Source: Psychromonas sp. CNPT3 | GTDB lineage: Bacteria; Pseudomonadota; Gammaproteobacteria; Enterobacterales; Psychromonadaceae | Direction of reading: 5' to 3' | Assembly: GCF_000153405.2 (NCBI RefSeq) | Contig: NC_020802.1 | Span: 639,883-703,882 of the forward strand | Length of the DNA stretch: 64,000 bases | Shown here: in pieces, positions 32,813 to 38,331 of the stretch | How positions within the stretch are numbered: the first letter of the stretch is position 1 | Layout: each line of letters opens with the position of its first letter | Notes under the pieces: model-generated | Databases searched by the model: none | Seen by the model: the letters and a program-made list of their open reading frames with translations, nothing else | Told to the model about the DNA's origin: nothing | Made by a program: the position numbers and the translations under genes

Positions 32813-33637
32813 ATGGCGAAAATCGCAACGCTAGGTCCGCCTAATACATTTTCTGACATTGCTACTCAGCAATTTATTAAAACGCAAAATTTAAATCACG
32901 AAATAAAATACTTCAAATCGCTCTCAGACACTTTTAGAGCGATTGGAGTGCATTGTGAGTTTGGCGTTTTACCGATAGAAAATTTATCAGAAGGCTATGT
33001 GCAAGTCGTTTTAGATCATTTACTCGAGACATCTTTAAATATTATTGCTGAATATTTACTACCTATTCAGTTTTCTTTTGTGCGTTACTCTGAAAGTGAC
33101 GGTCCATTAACCGATGTTTTTGTGCAGTTTGTGGCTTATGGGCAATGCTCTGAGTTTATTGAGCAGCAAAATAATATACGTGTGCACTATACACAAAGTA
33201 ATATAAGCTCACTGGTGGAAGCGCAAAAAAAAGGTAAAGGCGCGGGGGCTGTTGTGCCTAAGCATGCATTAAAATCAGAATGTTTAATGTCCTCGGTGGT
33301 CGAAAACATTACTAATTATGAAAATAATCAAACTCGATTTTTAGTCGTAAGTACTGAGCCCTGTATTTATCAACCTGCCGTGAATTATAAAACGACCTTA
33401 GTGGTTAAAAATGACAATGATTGTCCGGGGGTATTAGGTAATATTATTAATGCGTTTGCTGCCCAAAAAGTGAATCTTACCTCAATCATGTCTCGGCCGA
33501 CTAAATCGCAGTTTGGGCAGTACCATTTCTTTATTGATATTGATGGGCATCAGCAAGATGAAAACATTAAGCTTGCCATTTTAAATATTAAGAATGATCA
33601 CGTTATTCGGGTACTTGGCTCTTATCCAAAAGCGTGA
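32813..33637 (+). CDS. Prephenate dehydratase (stand-alone, no chorismate mutase domain)
   Basis: The ATG at 32813 gives 274 residues. The N-terminal prephenate dehydratase domain shows 'IATLGPPNTFSDIA' and 'GVLPIENLSEGYV', and the catalytic 'NQTRFLVV' block (TRF) near residue 178. It is followed by an ACT domain, with 'CPGVLGNIINAFAAQKVNLTSIMSRP' where the regulatory domain binds phenylalanine. Most gammaproteobacterial PheA proteins carry an N-terminal chorismate mutase, which is missing here, so the mutase must be elsewhere if this is the main phenylalanine enzyme. Its 3' end overlaps the convergent gene at 33603 by 35 bases. Confidence 0.88.
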   Translation: MAKIATLGPPNTFSDIATQQFIKTQNLNHEIKYFKSLSDTFRAIGVHCEFGVLPIENLSEGYVQVVLDHLLETSLNIIAEYLLPIQFSFVRYSESDGPLTDVFVQFVAYGQCSEFIEQQNNIRVHYTQSNISSLVEAQKKGKGAGAVVPKHALKSECLMSSVVENITNYENNQTRFLVVSTEPCIYQPAVNYKTTLVVKNDNDCPGVLGNIINAFAAQKVNLTSIMSRPTKSQFGQYHFFIDIDGHQQDENIKLAILNIKNDHVIRVLGSYPKA

Positions 33638-33980
33638 TACTTTTTAGCGTTTTCGGCGCATCTTGTTTTTGAGGATTATATTTGTTTTCAATGGCACAAA
33701 CACTTAATGTGCCTAATGCAACACAAAGTAATGCGCCTAAATAATTACCTTCACCGATTTTATTTGCACTTGCAATCGCGCAAGCAGTAGATATCCCGCC
33801 TTGTAAAAAAGCTTTGCTACTATCACGATAAAGTGTGTTTTTATCTATTTGCTTATCTTTATAACGCGCATAGTTAATGCTCGCACTACCGACCGCGGAG
33901 CCGATGGCACCACTGACAAAGTGACCCATGACATGACGAGGCATACCCGTATTAAGTGGTTTTTTTTGATAATATGGCAT
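33603..33980 (-). CDS. Glycine-zipper small membrane protein of the P1B-6 cluster
   Basis: This 125-residue protein has no family I recognise. Its hydrophobic segment 'HFVSGAIGSAVGSASINYA' (about 20-38) has GxxxG-like spacing, and a second hydrophobic region spans about 65-95. It is the last gene of the reverse-strand cluster, 15 bases after the P-type ATPase stop. Similar small hydrophobic GxxxG-type proteins accompany the ATPase in ferrosome loci. The C-terminal tail is basic and soluble, and the last 35 bases overlap prephenate dehydratase on the other strand. Function is inferred from context only. Confidence 0.7.
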   Translation of the reverse strand: MPYYQKKPLNTGMPRHVMGHFVSGAIGSAVGSASINYARYKDKQIDKNTLYRDSSKAFLQGGISTACAIASANKIGEGNYLGALLCVALGTLSVCAIENKYNPQKQDAPKTLKSITLLDKSQVPE

Positions 33981-33995
33981 TTTTATTCCTTTAGA

Positions 33996-36056
33996 TCATG
34001 CATCTTTAGCCGCTAATGAGCGCAAAATAACGGCTAATGTTGTGCCGTTATGTAGCAGTGCACTGGCGGCTGGATTAAGCCAGCCTAAAGCTGCTGCCCC
34101 CATAATTCCAGTATTAACGACTTCTGCTAAGCGAATGTTACTGTTAATAAGGCGCATCGCTTCATGGCTGATATCGAGCATCTTTTCAATGCCGTATAAA
34201 TCATCTTGTAAGAGCACAACATCGGCAGTTTGTTGTGCAAGCTCAGTGCTTTTATTCATGGCTAAACCGATATCGGCCATGGTTAATGCGGGGGCGTCAT
34301 TGACGCCATCACCGATATACAGCACTTTATCGCCTTGTCGTTGTAACTGCTTTACAATATTGGCTTTGTCTTCGGGTGTTGCCTGTGCAAAAACAACATC
34401 TATCCCTAATTTCTTCGCCAGTTTATCGGCGGGGGCTTGCTTATCACCCGTTAATAAAACCAGCTTTTTAATGCCCCGTTTTTTAAGGCCTTGCAGGACT
34501 TCATAGGCCTCTTTACGTAAATGATCTTTGAGGGCTATCAAGCCTATCAGTTGTTGATGATGAGAAACAAAAAGAAGATGTAAACCTTGTTGCTCAAGTA
34601 TCTCAATGGTCTCTTCATGATTTTTAAAATCAATACCTTCATGCGACTCTAAAAAATGTCGACTGCCTAAAATAAGCTCTTTGTCATTAAGATGACTTTT
34701 TAAACCGTGTGCGATCACATATTCAACTTCACCATGCTCAATATGGGGTAATTTGTGGTGTTTGGCTGCATTGACAATCGCTTGTGATAGCGGGTGATGG
34801 CAATGCTCTTCTACGGAGGCCGCTATTGCTAATAATTGTTTTGCATTATTTTTAGTATCGAGGCAAATGACATCACTGACTTCCATATCACCGTAGGTAA
34901 GTGTGCCTGTTTTATCAAAAACACAGGTATCAATTTTGACTGCTTGCTCAATAGCGCGGCCCCCTTTGAGTAATATTCCTTGTTTGGCCGCCCGATAAAT
35001 CATGGACTTAAAGGCAACAGGAGTACTTAATTTTAGGGCGCAAGAGTAATCCACTAAAAACACAGAAGCCACTCGGTTAATATCTTGAGTGAGAGCAAAA
35101 ACCGCGCCTCCAACGGCGAGTGTGATATTCACACGTCTGTCCGCCATCTCTTGGGTAACTTCTTGTATCTCACTTTTTTGTGATAGTGAGCTGGCAATAA
35201 ACTGTGCAATACGCGCCGTCGTAGCTTCACAGCCCACTTTTTCAGCAATGACTTTTATATTGCCCTCTTGGACTAGAGTGCCCGCATAAACATAAGCGCC
35301 GGACTCGCGCGCAACAGGTACACTTTCGCCCGTTAAAGAGGCTTGATTAATTAACGCCTCTCCGGATAATATATGTCCATCAACAGGGATCGCATCTCCA
35401 GGGCCGAGTACCAATATTTCTTGTTGTTTTATTTTATCTGATTTGATTAGTATTTTTTGTTTATCGCGCTCTATCCAAACGTCACTAATTTTGGGTTGCA
35501 TTAGCTCCGCAAGTAACTGATCGCTTTTTCTACTGGTTTGTTGCTCCATATACTCACCTAAAGTGAGCAGTGACTGCGTTAACATGGCCGTTTTATAATC
35601 GCCTCGATACACAGAAAGAGAGAGCGCGATAGCATCGAGCACCTCTACTTTTATTTTTTTATCAGCTAGTATTTTCGCGCCATTAAAAATGGTATCAGCA
35701 ATTAAAGGTAGTGTTGTTAACGCTCCTATTCTGCCTGGTAAAAAGAGGGTGCTTAATGAGCCAAGCAAGTTAAGTGTTATTTCACCTTTCGTATATTCAT
35801 GATCTAATTCAATATCGGAGGCTTGTGTTAAATCGATTTGTTGTAGTCGATGTTTTAAAACGTCATTGTTAAGAAGCAGGGGATCATATTCAATAACAAG
35901 GCTTTTTGCAGCTTGATTTATACGCACAGATTTAACGCCTTGGATAGCGAGTAAGCCTTGTTTTAGCCATCCAGCTGCATTTTCAAAATGCGCTAAAATA
36001 GCTAATTTAAAGCGAATACGCCCCGGGTAATAACTTTTAACGATTAATTTATTCAT
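33996..36056 (-). CDS. P1B-6-type heavy-metal P-type ATPase, FezB-like
   Basis: This 686-residue metal-transport ATPase has TGES at 242-245, DKTGT at 381-385 (phosphorylated Asp), the HP pair at 420-421 and GDGVNDAP at 582-589. The intramembrane metal motif is Ser-Cys-Ala (338-340) in place of the CPC, SPC or TPC of other classes; SCA is the P1B-6 signature as I recall it. The N-terminus has 'YPGRIRFKLAI' (10-20) and a ferredoxin-like fold without the CxxC of copper/zinc HMA domains. P1B-6 pumps are the core (FezB) of ferrosome gene clusters, where they load iron into a membrane-bound organelle. Its start shares one base with the stop of the upstream small gene. Iron as substrate is inference. 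Confidence 0.9.
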   Translation of the reverse strand: MNKLIVKSYYPGRIRFKLAILAHFENAAGWLKQGLLAIQGVKSVRINQAAKSLVIEYDPLLLNNDVLKHRLQQIDLTQASDIELDHEYTKGEITLNLLGSLSTLFLPGRIGALTTLPLIADTIFNGAKILADKKIKVEVLDAIALSLSVYRGDYKTAMLTQSLLTLGEYMEQQTSRKSDQLLAELMQPKISDVWIERDKQKILIKSDKIKQQEILVLGPGDAIPVDGHILSGEALINQASLTGESVPVARESGAYVYAGTLVQEGNIKVIAEKVGCEATTARIAQFIASSLSQKSEIQEVTQEMADRRVNITLAVGGAVFALTQDINRVASVFLVDYSCALKLSTPVAFKSMIYRAAKQGILLKGGRAIEQAVKIDTCVFDKTGTLTYGDMEVSDVICLDTKNNAKQLLAIAASVEEHCHHPLSQAIVNAAKHHKLPHIEHGEVEYVIAHGLKSHLNDKELILGSRHFLESHEGIDFKNHEETIEILEQQGLHLLFVSHHQQLIGLIALKDHLRKEAYEVLQGLKKRGIKKLVLLTGDKQAPADKLAKKLGIDVVFAQATPEDKANIVKQLQRQGDKVLYIGDGVNDAPALTMADIGLAMNKSTELAQQTADVVLLQDDLYGIEKMLDISHEAMRLINSNIRLAEVVNTGIMGAAALGWLNPAASALLHNGTTLAVILRSLAAKDA

Positions 36057-36319
36057 TACACGTCTTTGTTTAAATTACGATAATAATCGAGCTCAGCTTG
36101 AGTATCTTCAAGGCGCTCTTTAAGTTCTTCCATCTCACCACGTACAGCTGACCATGCTTTAGTCCCTGTTTTGCTCAGCGTACTTTGTACTTTTTTATTA
36201 CTGAGCAATGTCGCAATGGCAGCGCCCGCTGCAAGACCAATAAGAAAATTGTTTTTATGGGAGCCATGAGCGTGACCATGGTGTGCATAGGGATTAGTAT
36301 AATATGGATTATTTTTCAT
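36056..36319 (-). CDS. Small His-rich glycine-zipper (YtxH-like) membrane protein
   Basis: The ATG at 36319 has AGAGGA 9 bases upstream, giving 87 residues; an ATG 18 bases earlier would add 6. The N-terminus is Tyr/Asn/His-rich ('AHHGHAHGSH', possible metal ligands). One hydrophobic segment 'FLIGLAAGAAIATLLSN' follows with small-residue packing. The C-terminal half is a charged coiled coil ('GEMEELKERLEDTQAELDYY'). It resembles YtxH/gas-vesicle-like small proteins. It overlaps the next gene upstream by 11 bases and shares a base with the ATPase start, so its function is tied to the pump. Confidence 0.78.
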   Translation of the reverse strand: MKNNPYYTNPYAHHGHAHGSHKNNFLIGLAAGAAIATLLSNKKVQSTLSKTGTKAWSAVRGEMEELKERLEDTQAELDYYRNLNKDV

Positions 36320-37022
36320 CTTTATTTTCCTCTTCATTCATTAGATCATGCTCATCTGCAGTTGGCTGAGTAGCGTCTTGTTTGCTTTGCTGATGGCGTT
36401 GTACAGACTCTTGATAGCCTTGTTTTCCCGCATTAAAAGTATCTTTAAATATTTCATTGCTGGTATTGGCTGTGTCTTTAACGGAAGCGCTCATTTTACA
36501 GGCGTTATCTTTTATAGATGAGCTTGCTTTAGCTGCATTTTCTTTTATTTTATCAGTGCTATTTTTTAATATATCAGTGGCACCACTGAACATTTCCATC
36601 ATATTATTACGTACGTTCTCATTACCTAAGATCAGGGCAGCTGCTGCACCTATCATGGCGCCTTTCCAGAATTCTTTATCGTCTATTCCCATTTTAGATA
36701 GAATATCTTTCAGCATTCCGGCTTGATCTCCCATCAATCCTTCGACCATGCCTTGTGCTTGTTGGAAAAGCGCATCATTTTCAGGTTGTTCATAATGAGG
36801 TTGTCCATGATGCATGTGCGGAGGTGGTGGATAAGCATGGCCTGGATGCATATAGTATGGATTTGGCGCTGGGTAAGGAGGGCAACCTGGATAAGGATAA
36901 TAGCCGGGAGGTGGCATTGACGCATAAGCCTGTGCTTGCTCTTGTGTTGGCTGCTCCGTAAAACCTGGATGTTGAGGCCAAGGGTAGCTGCCATAAGGAT
37001 ATTGGTGCTTATTATCACTCAT
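36309..37022 (-). CDS. Pro/Tyr/His-rich membrane-associated protein of the P1B-6 cluster
   Basis: This 237-residue protein is in three parts: residues 1-80 are very rich in Pro, Tyr, His and Gly and look disordered; a middle part (about 85-135) has 'GMLKDILSKMGIDDKEFWKGAMIGAAAALILGNENV', with one hydrophobic small-residue segment; the rest is a charged Lys/Ala/Glu helical tail like LEA proteins. The His and Tyr side chains could hold iron at a surface. It has the same 'IGAAAALILGN-x-x-V' word as the small protein downstream ('IGLAAGAAIATLLSNKKV'), suggesting a shared module. I recognise no named family. Confidence 0.75.
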   Translation of the reverse strand: MSDNKHQYPYGSYPWPQHPGFTEQPTQEQAQAYASMPPPGYYPYPGCPPYPAPNPYYMHPGHAYPPPPHMHHGQPHYEQPENDALFQQAQGMVEGLMGDQAGMLKDILSKMGIDDKEFWKGAMIGAAAALILGNENVRNNMMEMFSGATDILKNSTDKIKENAAKASSSIKDNACKMSASVKDTANTSNEIFKDTFNAGKQGYQESVQRHQQSKQDATQPTADEHDLMNEEENKDEK

Positions 37023-37033
37023 TTTTTTCTCCG

Positions 37034-37363
37034 TTATGTTAAGTCGTGGTATTGACTCAGAATAGTCGTTAATGTTTGAAAGGCTTTTTGGGATTTTATT
37101 TCATCGTCCATTAATAATTGGTCAAGAAGATAAGAAGGGATGATCGTTTCATCATATTCAACGAGCAAACTACCTGTCGCTAAATTTAATTGGTAGTTTT
37201 TTATTAAAGGTGATTTTTGTATATCATCTTTGAATTTATTAAAATACATTGCTTTTGTTAAGATAGAAAAACAAAATTTAAGGCGGATCCTACCGGGAAT
37301 ATGGTGTTTAATCGAAAGCCATTGCTTAAGTTTAAATAAATCATTAATAAAAGGACTTGTCAT
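37034..37363 (-). CDS. HMA-like (HMA_2 type) protein, partner of the P1B-6 ATPase
   Basis: This 109-residue protein carries 'HHIPGRIRLKFCF' at about 20-32, the same PGRIR core as the ATPase N-terminus, followed by a ferredoxin-fold-like pattern ('YQLNLATGSLLVEYDETIIP') without a CxxC metal motif. It looks like the N-terminal domain of the ATPase encoded separately. It is the promoter-proximal gene of the reverse-strand cluster. Similar HMA-like proteins (FezC-type) occur in fez loci. Metal chaperone or membrane-curvature function is inference. Confidence 0.78.
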   Translation of the reverse strand: MTSPFINDLFKLKQWLSIKHHIPGRIRLKFCFSILTKAMYFNKFKDDIQKSPLIKNYQLNLATGSLLVEYDETIIPSYLLDQLLMDDEIKSQKAFQTLTTILSQYHDLT

Positions 37364-37601
37364 GAGGGGGGGCGATCACCTTATTGCTATATAGATGAGA
37401 ATACTCTAGACAATAAAAAGACAGTCGAGGGATTTTGGTTATAAAATAATTCATATTTGAGTGATATTACTCACAAAACTAAAAAAATAGAGTGTGATAA
37501 TTTTATATCTTCTTGAAATGCAAATGATAATTATTTCCATTGCTAATGTGTTTGTGCTTAGGTACTATTTACATTTTATTAACGTTGATAATGGAAGCTC
37601 T
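37364..37601. promoter_or_regulatory. Divergent promoter region of the P1B-6 cluster
   Basis: This 238-base gap separates the reverse-strand cluster from the forward HMA-like gene. It contains a Fur-like box at 37520-37538 and a near-palindrome TGAGTGATATTACTCA (about 37456-37471) whose regulator I cannot name. Confidence 0.6.
37520..37538 (+). promoter_or_regulatory. Fur box in the divergent P1B-6 promoter region
   Basis: TGATAAT-T-ATTTCCA matches the 7-1-7 Fur pattern at 12 of 14 positions, the same score as the suf box. Fez clusters elsewhere are reported to respond to iron, which fits. Confidence 0.6.
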
Positions 37602-37961
37602 ATGCAAGTTTATATTCATAAAACAAATAATCGCGTGCGTATTCGTTCAGATTATATTTTTGAAAACCGAGATAAAGTTGCCTCTCTTATTAGCGAACTG
37701 ACTAAAGTAGACGGTATTTTAAATGTTAAACATAAAAAGTATGCAGGATCGGTCGCAATCACCTTTAGTGAGAATAAAATAACGTTAGAGACATTACTCG
37801 AAACGTTAACGAGCCACCATTGGTTGATGGAAAGTCAAAAAAATTGTTTTTTTGAAAATGCGATGCGCAAGGGAACAAAGTCAGTGCTTAAAGGCGTGTT
37901 GATGTTTGCTGCTAAAAAAGCATTGGGTGTAGGTGTCGTTACTGCAATTGCTGCGATTTAA
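37602..37961 (+). CDS. HMA-like small protein, divergent member of the P1B-6 cluster
   Basis: The ATG at 37602 has GGAAG 4 bases upstream; upstream in-frame starts run through the promoter. The 119-residue protein has an N-terminal ferredoxin-fold-like module ('NNRVRIRSDYIF', a relaxed form of the PGRIR motif, then 'VDGILNVKHKKYAGSVAITFS') and a C-terminal hydrophobic segment rich in Gly/Ala ('ALGVGVVTAIAAI'). It resembles the HMA_2 family that accompanies P1B-6 pumps. A Fur-like box lies 64 bases before the start. The tail overlaps the convergent Cys-cluster gene by 23 bases. Confidence 0.75.
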   Translation: MQVYIHKTNNRVRIRSDYIFENRDKVASLISELTKVDGILNVKHKKYAGSVAITFSENKITLETLLETLTSHHWLMESQKNCFFENAMRKGTKSVLKGVLMFAAKKALGVGVVTAIAAI

Positions 37962-38331
37962 AATATTTTAGGGCGCATTTACACAGACCTTTATTAAGGG
38001 CAGGGCATTTTTTACAGGGAGGGTTTTTAAACGCTTTACTGCTAAAAGTGACGATATTTAATCTTTTTTCATTTTCTTTTTTTGTCTTTTTTGGATCCTT
38101 ATTTTTGTTTTTCGTCTTTTGTTTTTTCTCCTGAAACGTATTGCTATCCAGTGTGTTATTCGTATCATTAAACCAAGAAATAATAGGCAGTAAGGGGATT
38201 TTTATTTCAGCTATAAACTCGCTACCACCTTGTTTTACGATATGTAACAGTTCAGACTGTAAAGTCGTCTTATCTTTATTACGTAAGCTATTTAAGTTCA
38301 GATCAGAGACAAATATCTCTGTTTTCTTCAT
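37939..38331 (-). CDS. Unknown protein with a C-terminal cysteine cluster
   Basis: This 130-residue protein is not one I recognise. The first 60 residues are ordinary soluble sequence; a Lys/Asn-rich linker follows (about 72-92, 'KKQKTKNKNK' type); the last 25 residues have four clustered cysteines in C-x2-C-x7-C-x-C order ('CKKCPALNKGLCKC'), a plausible Fe-S or zinc ligand set. It is convergent with, and overlaps, the HMA-like gene, so it may belong to the iron-related locus. No strong ribosome-binding site was identified. Confidence 0.6.
   Translation of the reverse strand: MKKTEIFVSDLNLNSLRNKDKTTLQSELLHIVKQGGSEFIAEIKIPLLPIISWFNDTNNTLDSNTFQEKKQKTKNKNKDPKKTKKENEKRLNIVTFSSKAFKNPPCKKCPALNKGLCKCALKYFKSQQLQ

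Follow-up and report, generated by a model that had tools for sequence, protein, structure and literature searches.

Introduction

Does the bacterium Psychromonas sp. CNPT3 carry the genes of a ferrosome? The question is raised by a cluster at positions 33603 to 38331 of the window, the 64,000-nucleotide stretch of contig NC_020802.1 analysed here, which consists of a reverse-strand operon of five genes together with one divergent and one convergent gene. Ferrosomes were recognised as bacterial organelles only recently, and to our knowledge no job has been assigned to most of the small proteins that belong to them. The cluster is best explained as a ferrosome (fez-type) operon under putative control by Fur. 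It would be a variant of a kind already known, made up of six sorts of component and a linked four-cysteine gene. This reading is given a probability of about 0.8, and the gene set would predict that the organelle is formed in this organism. Profile comparison further indicates that a small hydrophobic protein family of these clusters is homologous to the magnetosome protein MamC over a core of 89 columns.

Conservation and distribution of the cluster

The locus is more than a chance grouping, for relatives carry these gene families in the same arrangement. A set of 99 loci was assembled by iterated profile searches, made up of the window, 14 loci from survey genomes, 4 from plasmids and 80 from named genomes; the 80 are the best of at least 582 confirmed loci in the scan of named genomes, and in two cases (L023/L093 and L025/L083) a pair of loci seems to come from one genome. 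The common order is HMA, first zipper, MamC-like, second zipper and ATPase, frequently with a further HMA gene that is either divergent or downstream, and most of the 99 loci have members of these families next to the ATPase, in taxa that include Vibrio, Shewanella, enterics and Chromatiaceae as well as others. The order HMA, HMA, zipper, zipper, ATPase is kept in all eleven of the relatives L019 to L029; beyond the close relatives of the window, the two zipper families blur and some HMA genes are missing or unrecognised. Among the matches listed, clusters of the window's type come from several vibrios, Photobacterium, Shewanella, Ferrimonas and enterics.

These results bear on the initial annotation, which had proposed that the organism builds ferrosomes with a gene set of its own, including the H/P/Y-rich protein. 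A private gene set is ruled out, because this protein and the other families occur in Vibrio, Shewanella, Photobacterium, Ferrimonas and enterics. Related small proteins, whose absence elsewhere the annotation would have counted against a ferrosome, are present at other such loci, so that this objection falls away. The ferrosome-type interpretation itself draws support from the ATPase clade, the small partners found elsewhere and the Fur-like box; the relationship to MamC had been missed. All of the parts that had been listed were recovered in place by an open reading frame check and Pfam, among them the divergent HMA-like gene and the Fur-like box in the common promoter; the list had, however, omitted a convergent four-cysteine gene (37939-38331, reverse strand) that lies inside the interval it covered.

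At a threshold of 1e-120 the ATPase is found in 14 of 394 genomes of the order, the window's own counted, and a class-wide draw of 369 genomes contains it at 1e-115 in two, one of which is again the window's own. In the genus of genome G123 (probably Shewanella), represented by 129 genomes, window-type ATPases with 59-65% identity are present in 11, while one genome (G1143) has an ATPase of 39% identity and 20 have only more distant ones (30-35%).

The ATPase

The central gene (33996-36056, reverse strand) encodes a P1B-type ATPase of 686 aa, assigned with Pfam, NCBIfam and a motif table, which carries PGRIR close to its N-terminus and, at the membrane metal site, DYSCALK; residues 1-150 are free of CxxC. 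In a tree of 35 P1B-type ATPases, a branch with 100/100 support holds 25 rows with SC(A/S)LK or ACPVK motifs, the window included, apart from ten others, namely nine CPC or SPC proteins and one DFSCGLK protein. The latter, from G050 (tree row L007), joins the 25 next, a placement that comes with a long-branch warning. The closest row of the tree is 63% identical to the window ATPase and the top identity seen anywhere is 65% (G1150); identity to the Azospirillum-type ATPase is about 40%. The best-matching solved structures are copper and cadmium pumps. CopA and ZntA, the copper and zinc P1B ATPases, have the same catalytic core and are nearest among solved structures, but the window ATPase differs from them in having SCA in place of CPC and an N-terminal part without CxxC. 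Separation from CPC and SPC-type metal ATPases is supported (100/100), while membership of the P1B-6 group, expected by the initial annotation, is putative and comes from the SCA motif associated with that group and from gene-set likeness. Motif and gene set together suggest that it is FezB-like. Elsewhere, locus L032 (G050) has an ATPase of 34% identity with DFSCGLK, accompanied by two HMA-like genes and lacking a MamC-family gene, and this is possibly another ATPase type with HMA partners.

A different role for such an enzyme would be that of a plasma-membrane efflux pump for Fe2+ (or Ni2+, Co2+) which, with small helpers, serves metal detoxification and forms no organelle. Export of metals from the cytoplasm is the general activity of P1B ATPases, and the evidence on the present cluster comes from sequence, in which an organelle would not be seen. 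A mutant of nia (P1B-5) accumulated nickel and iron (PMC4932525). An efflux pump nevertheless fits poorly with a clade devoid of CPC or SPC, with the presence of a Fur-like box, in place of a known metal-excess control, both in the window and at roughly every second locus, and with zipper and MamC-family proteins in most loci that simple efflux would not need. On balance this role is unlikely.

A relative of MamC in ferrosome-type operons

The last gene of the operon (33603-33980, reverse strand) encodes a protein of 125 aa that had been described as a small hydrophobic protein; the protein is indeed present, but its membership of the MamC family had gone unnoticed. It matches the NCBIfam MamC model with an E-value of 1.1e-6 and 28.8 bits, below the 100-bit cut-off, and it does not have the status of a magnetosome equivalog, sitting as it does in an ATPase operon. 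A gene of the family is present in 94 of the 99 loci. It is missing from L032, L064, L113, L125 and L129; two of these five, L113 and L129, are cut by the end of a contig, and in L064 an unmatched 118-aa gene occupies the MamC place. Seven loci, mostly from Chromatiaceae (L119, L120, L126, L130, L131, L132 and L137), have two MamC-family genes per cluster.

The relationship is seen from both sides. The MamC model NF038051 matches 96 of 101 cluster proteins at 0.01, the best with 9.3e-12. Run against 398 genomes of the phylum, the NCBIfam model gives 13 matches above the curated cut-off, and the next three (2.1e-7 to 4.5e-6) all lie in clusters of the present kind (G156, the window and G052). 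A model built from the 13 MamC sequences finds 88 of the 101 cluster proteins at 1e-3 and nothing else among 7672 open reading frames, shuffles and reversals; at 0.01 it finds 93 cluster proteins and one reversed sequence. In the reverse search, a profile made without the window and Arcobacter copies finds 13 of 13 MamC at 4.1e-13 or better, with the best control at 0.015, and hhalign pairs the ferrosome-type family with MamC at 99.0% (E 6.1e-18, 89 columns). A search of the PDB with the MamC-like profile returned chance-level matches alone (E 0.079 and up). Below the three cluster matches, the phylum-wide search gives 12 weak ones (0.002 to 0.009), which were considered as further ferrosome loci and rejected; a FezB match at 1e-100 occurs in none of 25 genomes, the 12 with weak matches and the 13 with true MamC, in a scan without a positive control.

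The resemblance might instead reflect a shared glycine-zipper composition and not common descent, since each of the two proteins is small and has a high content of Gly and Ala. Scores of 0.0078 and 0.013 were obtained for two reversed sequences, 5 of the 101 members give no match to the MamC model at 0.01, and the MamC-like protein of G1143, although it matches its own family at 2.9e-12, is unmatched by the 13-sequence MamC model at 0.01, so that the G1143 type is tied to MamC through the family. Against this stand the span and strength of the alignment, the recovery of every MamC sequence far ahead of the best control, and the behaviour of the other zipper proteins of the same clusters, which share the composition and remain unmatched (best 0.28; 0.8% and E 0.073 in hhalign for the P/Y/H family). 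With controls this clean, composition as the sole cause is rejected and retains only a very slight probability.

The family is also tightly linked with the ATPase. Over the 394 genomes of the order, those with a family match of 7.7e-16 or better are exactly the 14 that have the ATPase, while the other 380 give four partial matches (3.4e-7 to 3.9e-4) within frames of 272 to 544 residues; because all 14 gave a sequence to the profile, the informative half of this result is the absence in the other 380. For the 13 true MamC, an NCBIfam scan covered ten neighbours in six loci. It named MamD next to MamC at L036, and at the five others it recognised no magnetosome gene, so that the label "magnetosome" for the 13 depends mainly on the MamC cut-off.

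In MamC, the loop residues Asp66 and Glu70 are required for magnetite interaction (PMC6206293), and MamC-GFP has been used as a marker (PMC12713370). The pair was matched by the present authors to two invariant columns of the 13 MamC, an Asp and a Glu four apart. Both columns are acidic in 13 of 13 MamC versus 3 of 101 ferrosome-type proteins, 57 of which have one acidic residue; the window protein has Asp and Ala. With the pair so rarely complete, the crystal contact would be mostly lost in the ferrosome branch, which appears to retain the membrane core, and this would fit a role in a vesicle without magnetite.

The window copy is unusual within its family. It is 50% identical to a copy on an Arcobacter plasmid (92 aa, 3e-29), the next match by E-value having 29% over 101 aa (6e-6), and it is distant from the gamma copies. 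The tree places it among Arcobacter and alpha-type copies in a group of five rows (100/96), the other four being those of Arcobacter, Azospirillum, G145 and G1143. The ATPase, by contrast, belongs with the gamma type. The usual MamC-family gene between the two zipper genes is absent and the zipper genes now overlap by 11 bases. The window cluster thus looks like a mosaic in which the usual copy was lost and a copy of another type, behind the ATPase, took its place. The same gap could be read as a sign that the cluster is decaying or non-functional here, but every frame is open and packed and the other-type gene follows 15 bases behind the ATPase, which makes decay quite improbable.

In the family tree, six MamC sequences fall among the ferrosome ones. 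Because this arrangement has weak support (89/86) and the root is a midpoint root only, either direction of descent would fit the tree. There is an even chance that ferrosomes and magnetosomes have a homologous membrane protein in common, with one branch of the family belonging to FezB-type operons, the other to magnetosome clusters, and with magnetosome MamC possibly taken from a ferrosome operon before it gained the magnetite-touching acidic pair.

Small partners and the four-cysteine gene

The five reverse-strand genes run from 37363 down to 33603 and are packed as in one operon, adjacent genes overlapping by 1 or 11 bases or being separated by 11 or 15. The first (37034-37363) encodes a conserved HMA_2-like protein of 109 aa without CxxC, which carries HHIPGRIRLKF. 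The divergent gene (37602-37961, forward strand, from a likely ATG) encodes an HMA_2-like protein of 119 aa with a hydrophobic C-terminus and is divergent in 11 of 11 of L019-L029. The Pfam family HMA_2 (PF19991) is matched by these two at 1.1e-12 and 1.5e-7, respectively, and by the N-terminus of the ATPase at 1.8e-10.

The first zipper slot is taken by a P/Y/H-rich protein of 237 aa (36309-37022, reverse strand), which was assigned with family profiles and has the zipper EFWKGAMIGAAA. Its head consists to 71% of P, Y, H, G, Q, M and W; the family median is 69%, measured over the 87 of 122 P/Y/H-labelled proteins with a recognisable zipper, and the ATPases have 23%. Heads are between 78 and 311 residues long. 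The AlphaFold2 models have modest confidence, with a mean predicted local distance difference test score (pLDDT) of 60.3 and 67.4, from alignments of 61 of 85 and 42 of 67 eligible members. That of the P/Y/H protein (60.3) is below 50 over most of the head, for which it predicts no structure, and has helices at 116-133 and 135-217, the long helix coming after the zipper. In G1140 (probably Shewanella), the P/Y/H-type head is a long run of PGMQ/PGMY repeats (L202, 8648-9577). On the Arcobacter plasmid (L063, 4321-5004), a DUF2202 protein, presumably ferritin-like, has a zipper-like tail and lies between an HMA gene and a 90-aa glycine-rich protein.

The second slot holds a His-rich glycine-zipper protein (36056-36319, reverse strand) of 87 aa from its likely ATG, the frame in the open reading frame list beginning at 36337 (93 aa); it is YtxH-like (4.1e-4, under the Pfam YtxH cut-off), and its counterpart stands beside the ATPase in 11 of 11 of the relatives L019-L029. 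The convergent gene encodes a protein of 130 aa with a C-terminal CxxC..CxC. Its family has 48 members in 47 of the 99 loci, 47 of the 48 with this motif, and may bind iron or an Fe-S cluster.

Regulation and iron setting

The divergent promoter contains a Fur-like box, GCAAATGATAATTATTTCC, at 37520-37538 (forward strand), which agrees with a Fur consensus at 14 of 19 positions and is equalled by 3 of 100 shuffles of the same stretch. In the 59 of the 99 loci where a divergent HMA gene and an operon HMA gene lie close by, such a box falls in the top 5% of shuffles at 29, where about 3 would be expected (near-duplicate genomes included), so that the box of the initial annotation recurs in about half of the relatives tested. 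Promoter and terminator scans of the locus gave no more than shuffles within their spread. The host genome, a single contig of 3.05 Mb, has two FUR-family genes. In Azospirillum and Cereibacter, iron uptake genes adjoin the cluster; in the latter, L064 is a ferrosome-type cluster on a conjugative plasmid, beside a FeoA-family gene and TonB-dependent receptors.

Comparison with known ferrosome systems

Shewanella putrefaciens is said, by Grant et al. in 2022, to have six fez genes. In Rhodopseudomonas palustris CGA009, ferrosomes likewise arise from six fez genes, RPA2333-2338 (PMC12016538). The window shares with this operon a FezB-type ATPase and small partners, and similar layouts occur on Azospirillum brasilense plasmid p3 (HMA2, a second HMA-like, a hypothetical, a MamC-like hypothetical, a YtxH-like and the ATPase gene) and in G1143 (HMA, HMA, an 82-aa protein, MamC-like, zipper, ATPase). 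The third gene of both is likened to the zipper slot only by its position and by a start that is hydrophobic and rich in glycine. Within this limit, the window ATPase shares with the six-gene layouts a set of neighbouring HMA-like and zipper proteins of small size. The window differs in having one HMA gene divergent, a large P/Y/H head on the first zipper protein, a linked four-cysteine gene and the MamC-family gene behind the ATPase, in a comparison drawn by layout. With the fezABC genes of Desulfovibrio magneticus and the fez genes of Clostridioides difficile it has in common a P1B-type ATPase and a small membrane protein. In C. difficile, FezA and FezB are Fur-repressed (PMC12574912), and D. 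magneticus FezC is a DUF4405-like cytochrome (PMC10979944); the window has no such FezC among its seven proteins and has more small proteins than fezABC. From MamC (Mms13), homologous over the 89-column core, the window protein differs by falling under the equivalog cut-off, and the ferrosome-type proteins by mostly lacking the acidic pair.

Proposed function

If the cluster works as a ferrosome operon, shortage of iron would lead Fur to release the promoter, as the box suggests, and the genes would be made. The small HMA-like proteins without CxxC, together with the HMA-like N-terminus of the ATPase, would handle or gate Fe2+, which the ATPase would pump from the cytoplasm into a vesicle, in keeping with the proposed role of FezB. 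The two glycine-zipper proteins and the MamC-family protein could be packed into the membrane of the vesicle and contribute to its formation or stability, with the P/Y/H-rich head acting as a flexible coat or iron-binding face.

Several observations weigh against such a ferrosome operon. It is predicted here from genes, and no proven FezB is named among the sequences compared, the tree included. None of 23 genomes of the same genus has the ATPase at 1e-80. A DUF4405-like FezC cytochrome finds no Pfam match at E up to 1 among the seven proteins, and the third gene in G1143 and Azospirillum has no profile match to the zipper families. No Fur-like box reaches the top 5% in 30 of the 59 promoters. 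The host genome also has one ferritin-family protein, so that ferrosomes would not be the sole iron store.

Genomic setting

The cluster is flanked by a prephenate-dehydratase-like and a carboxypeptidase-like gene, named from reading the translations without a family search. In the relative G004, whose 1.7 Mb genome is 79% complete and also lacks other genes of the window, the two lie about 40 bases apart with no cluster between them, which means that the cluster was inserted in the window organism or lost in G004.

Implications

The literature listings searched yielded no account of MamC relatives within ferrosome operons, though one may be given by Grant et al. 2022 or by Pi et al. 2023. A conserved relative of MamC gives a handle on one small ferrosome protein and links two iron organelles that have been described as separate, and the homology hints at components common to both. 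The survey widens the taxa to be examined for ferrosomes to vibrios, Photobacterium, Shewanella, Ferrimonas and enterics. If the descent of magnetosome MamC from a ferrosome operon is true, the ferrosome MamC would be a general protein of iron-filled vesicles.

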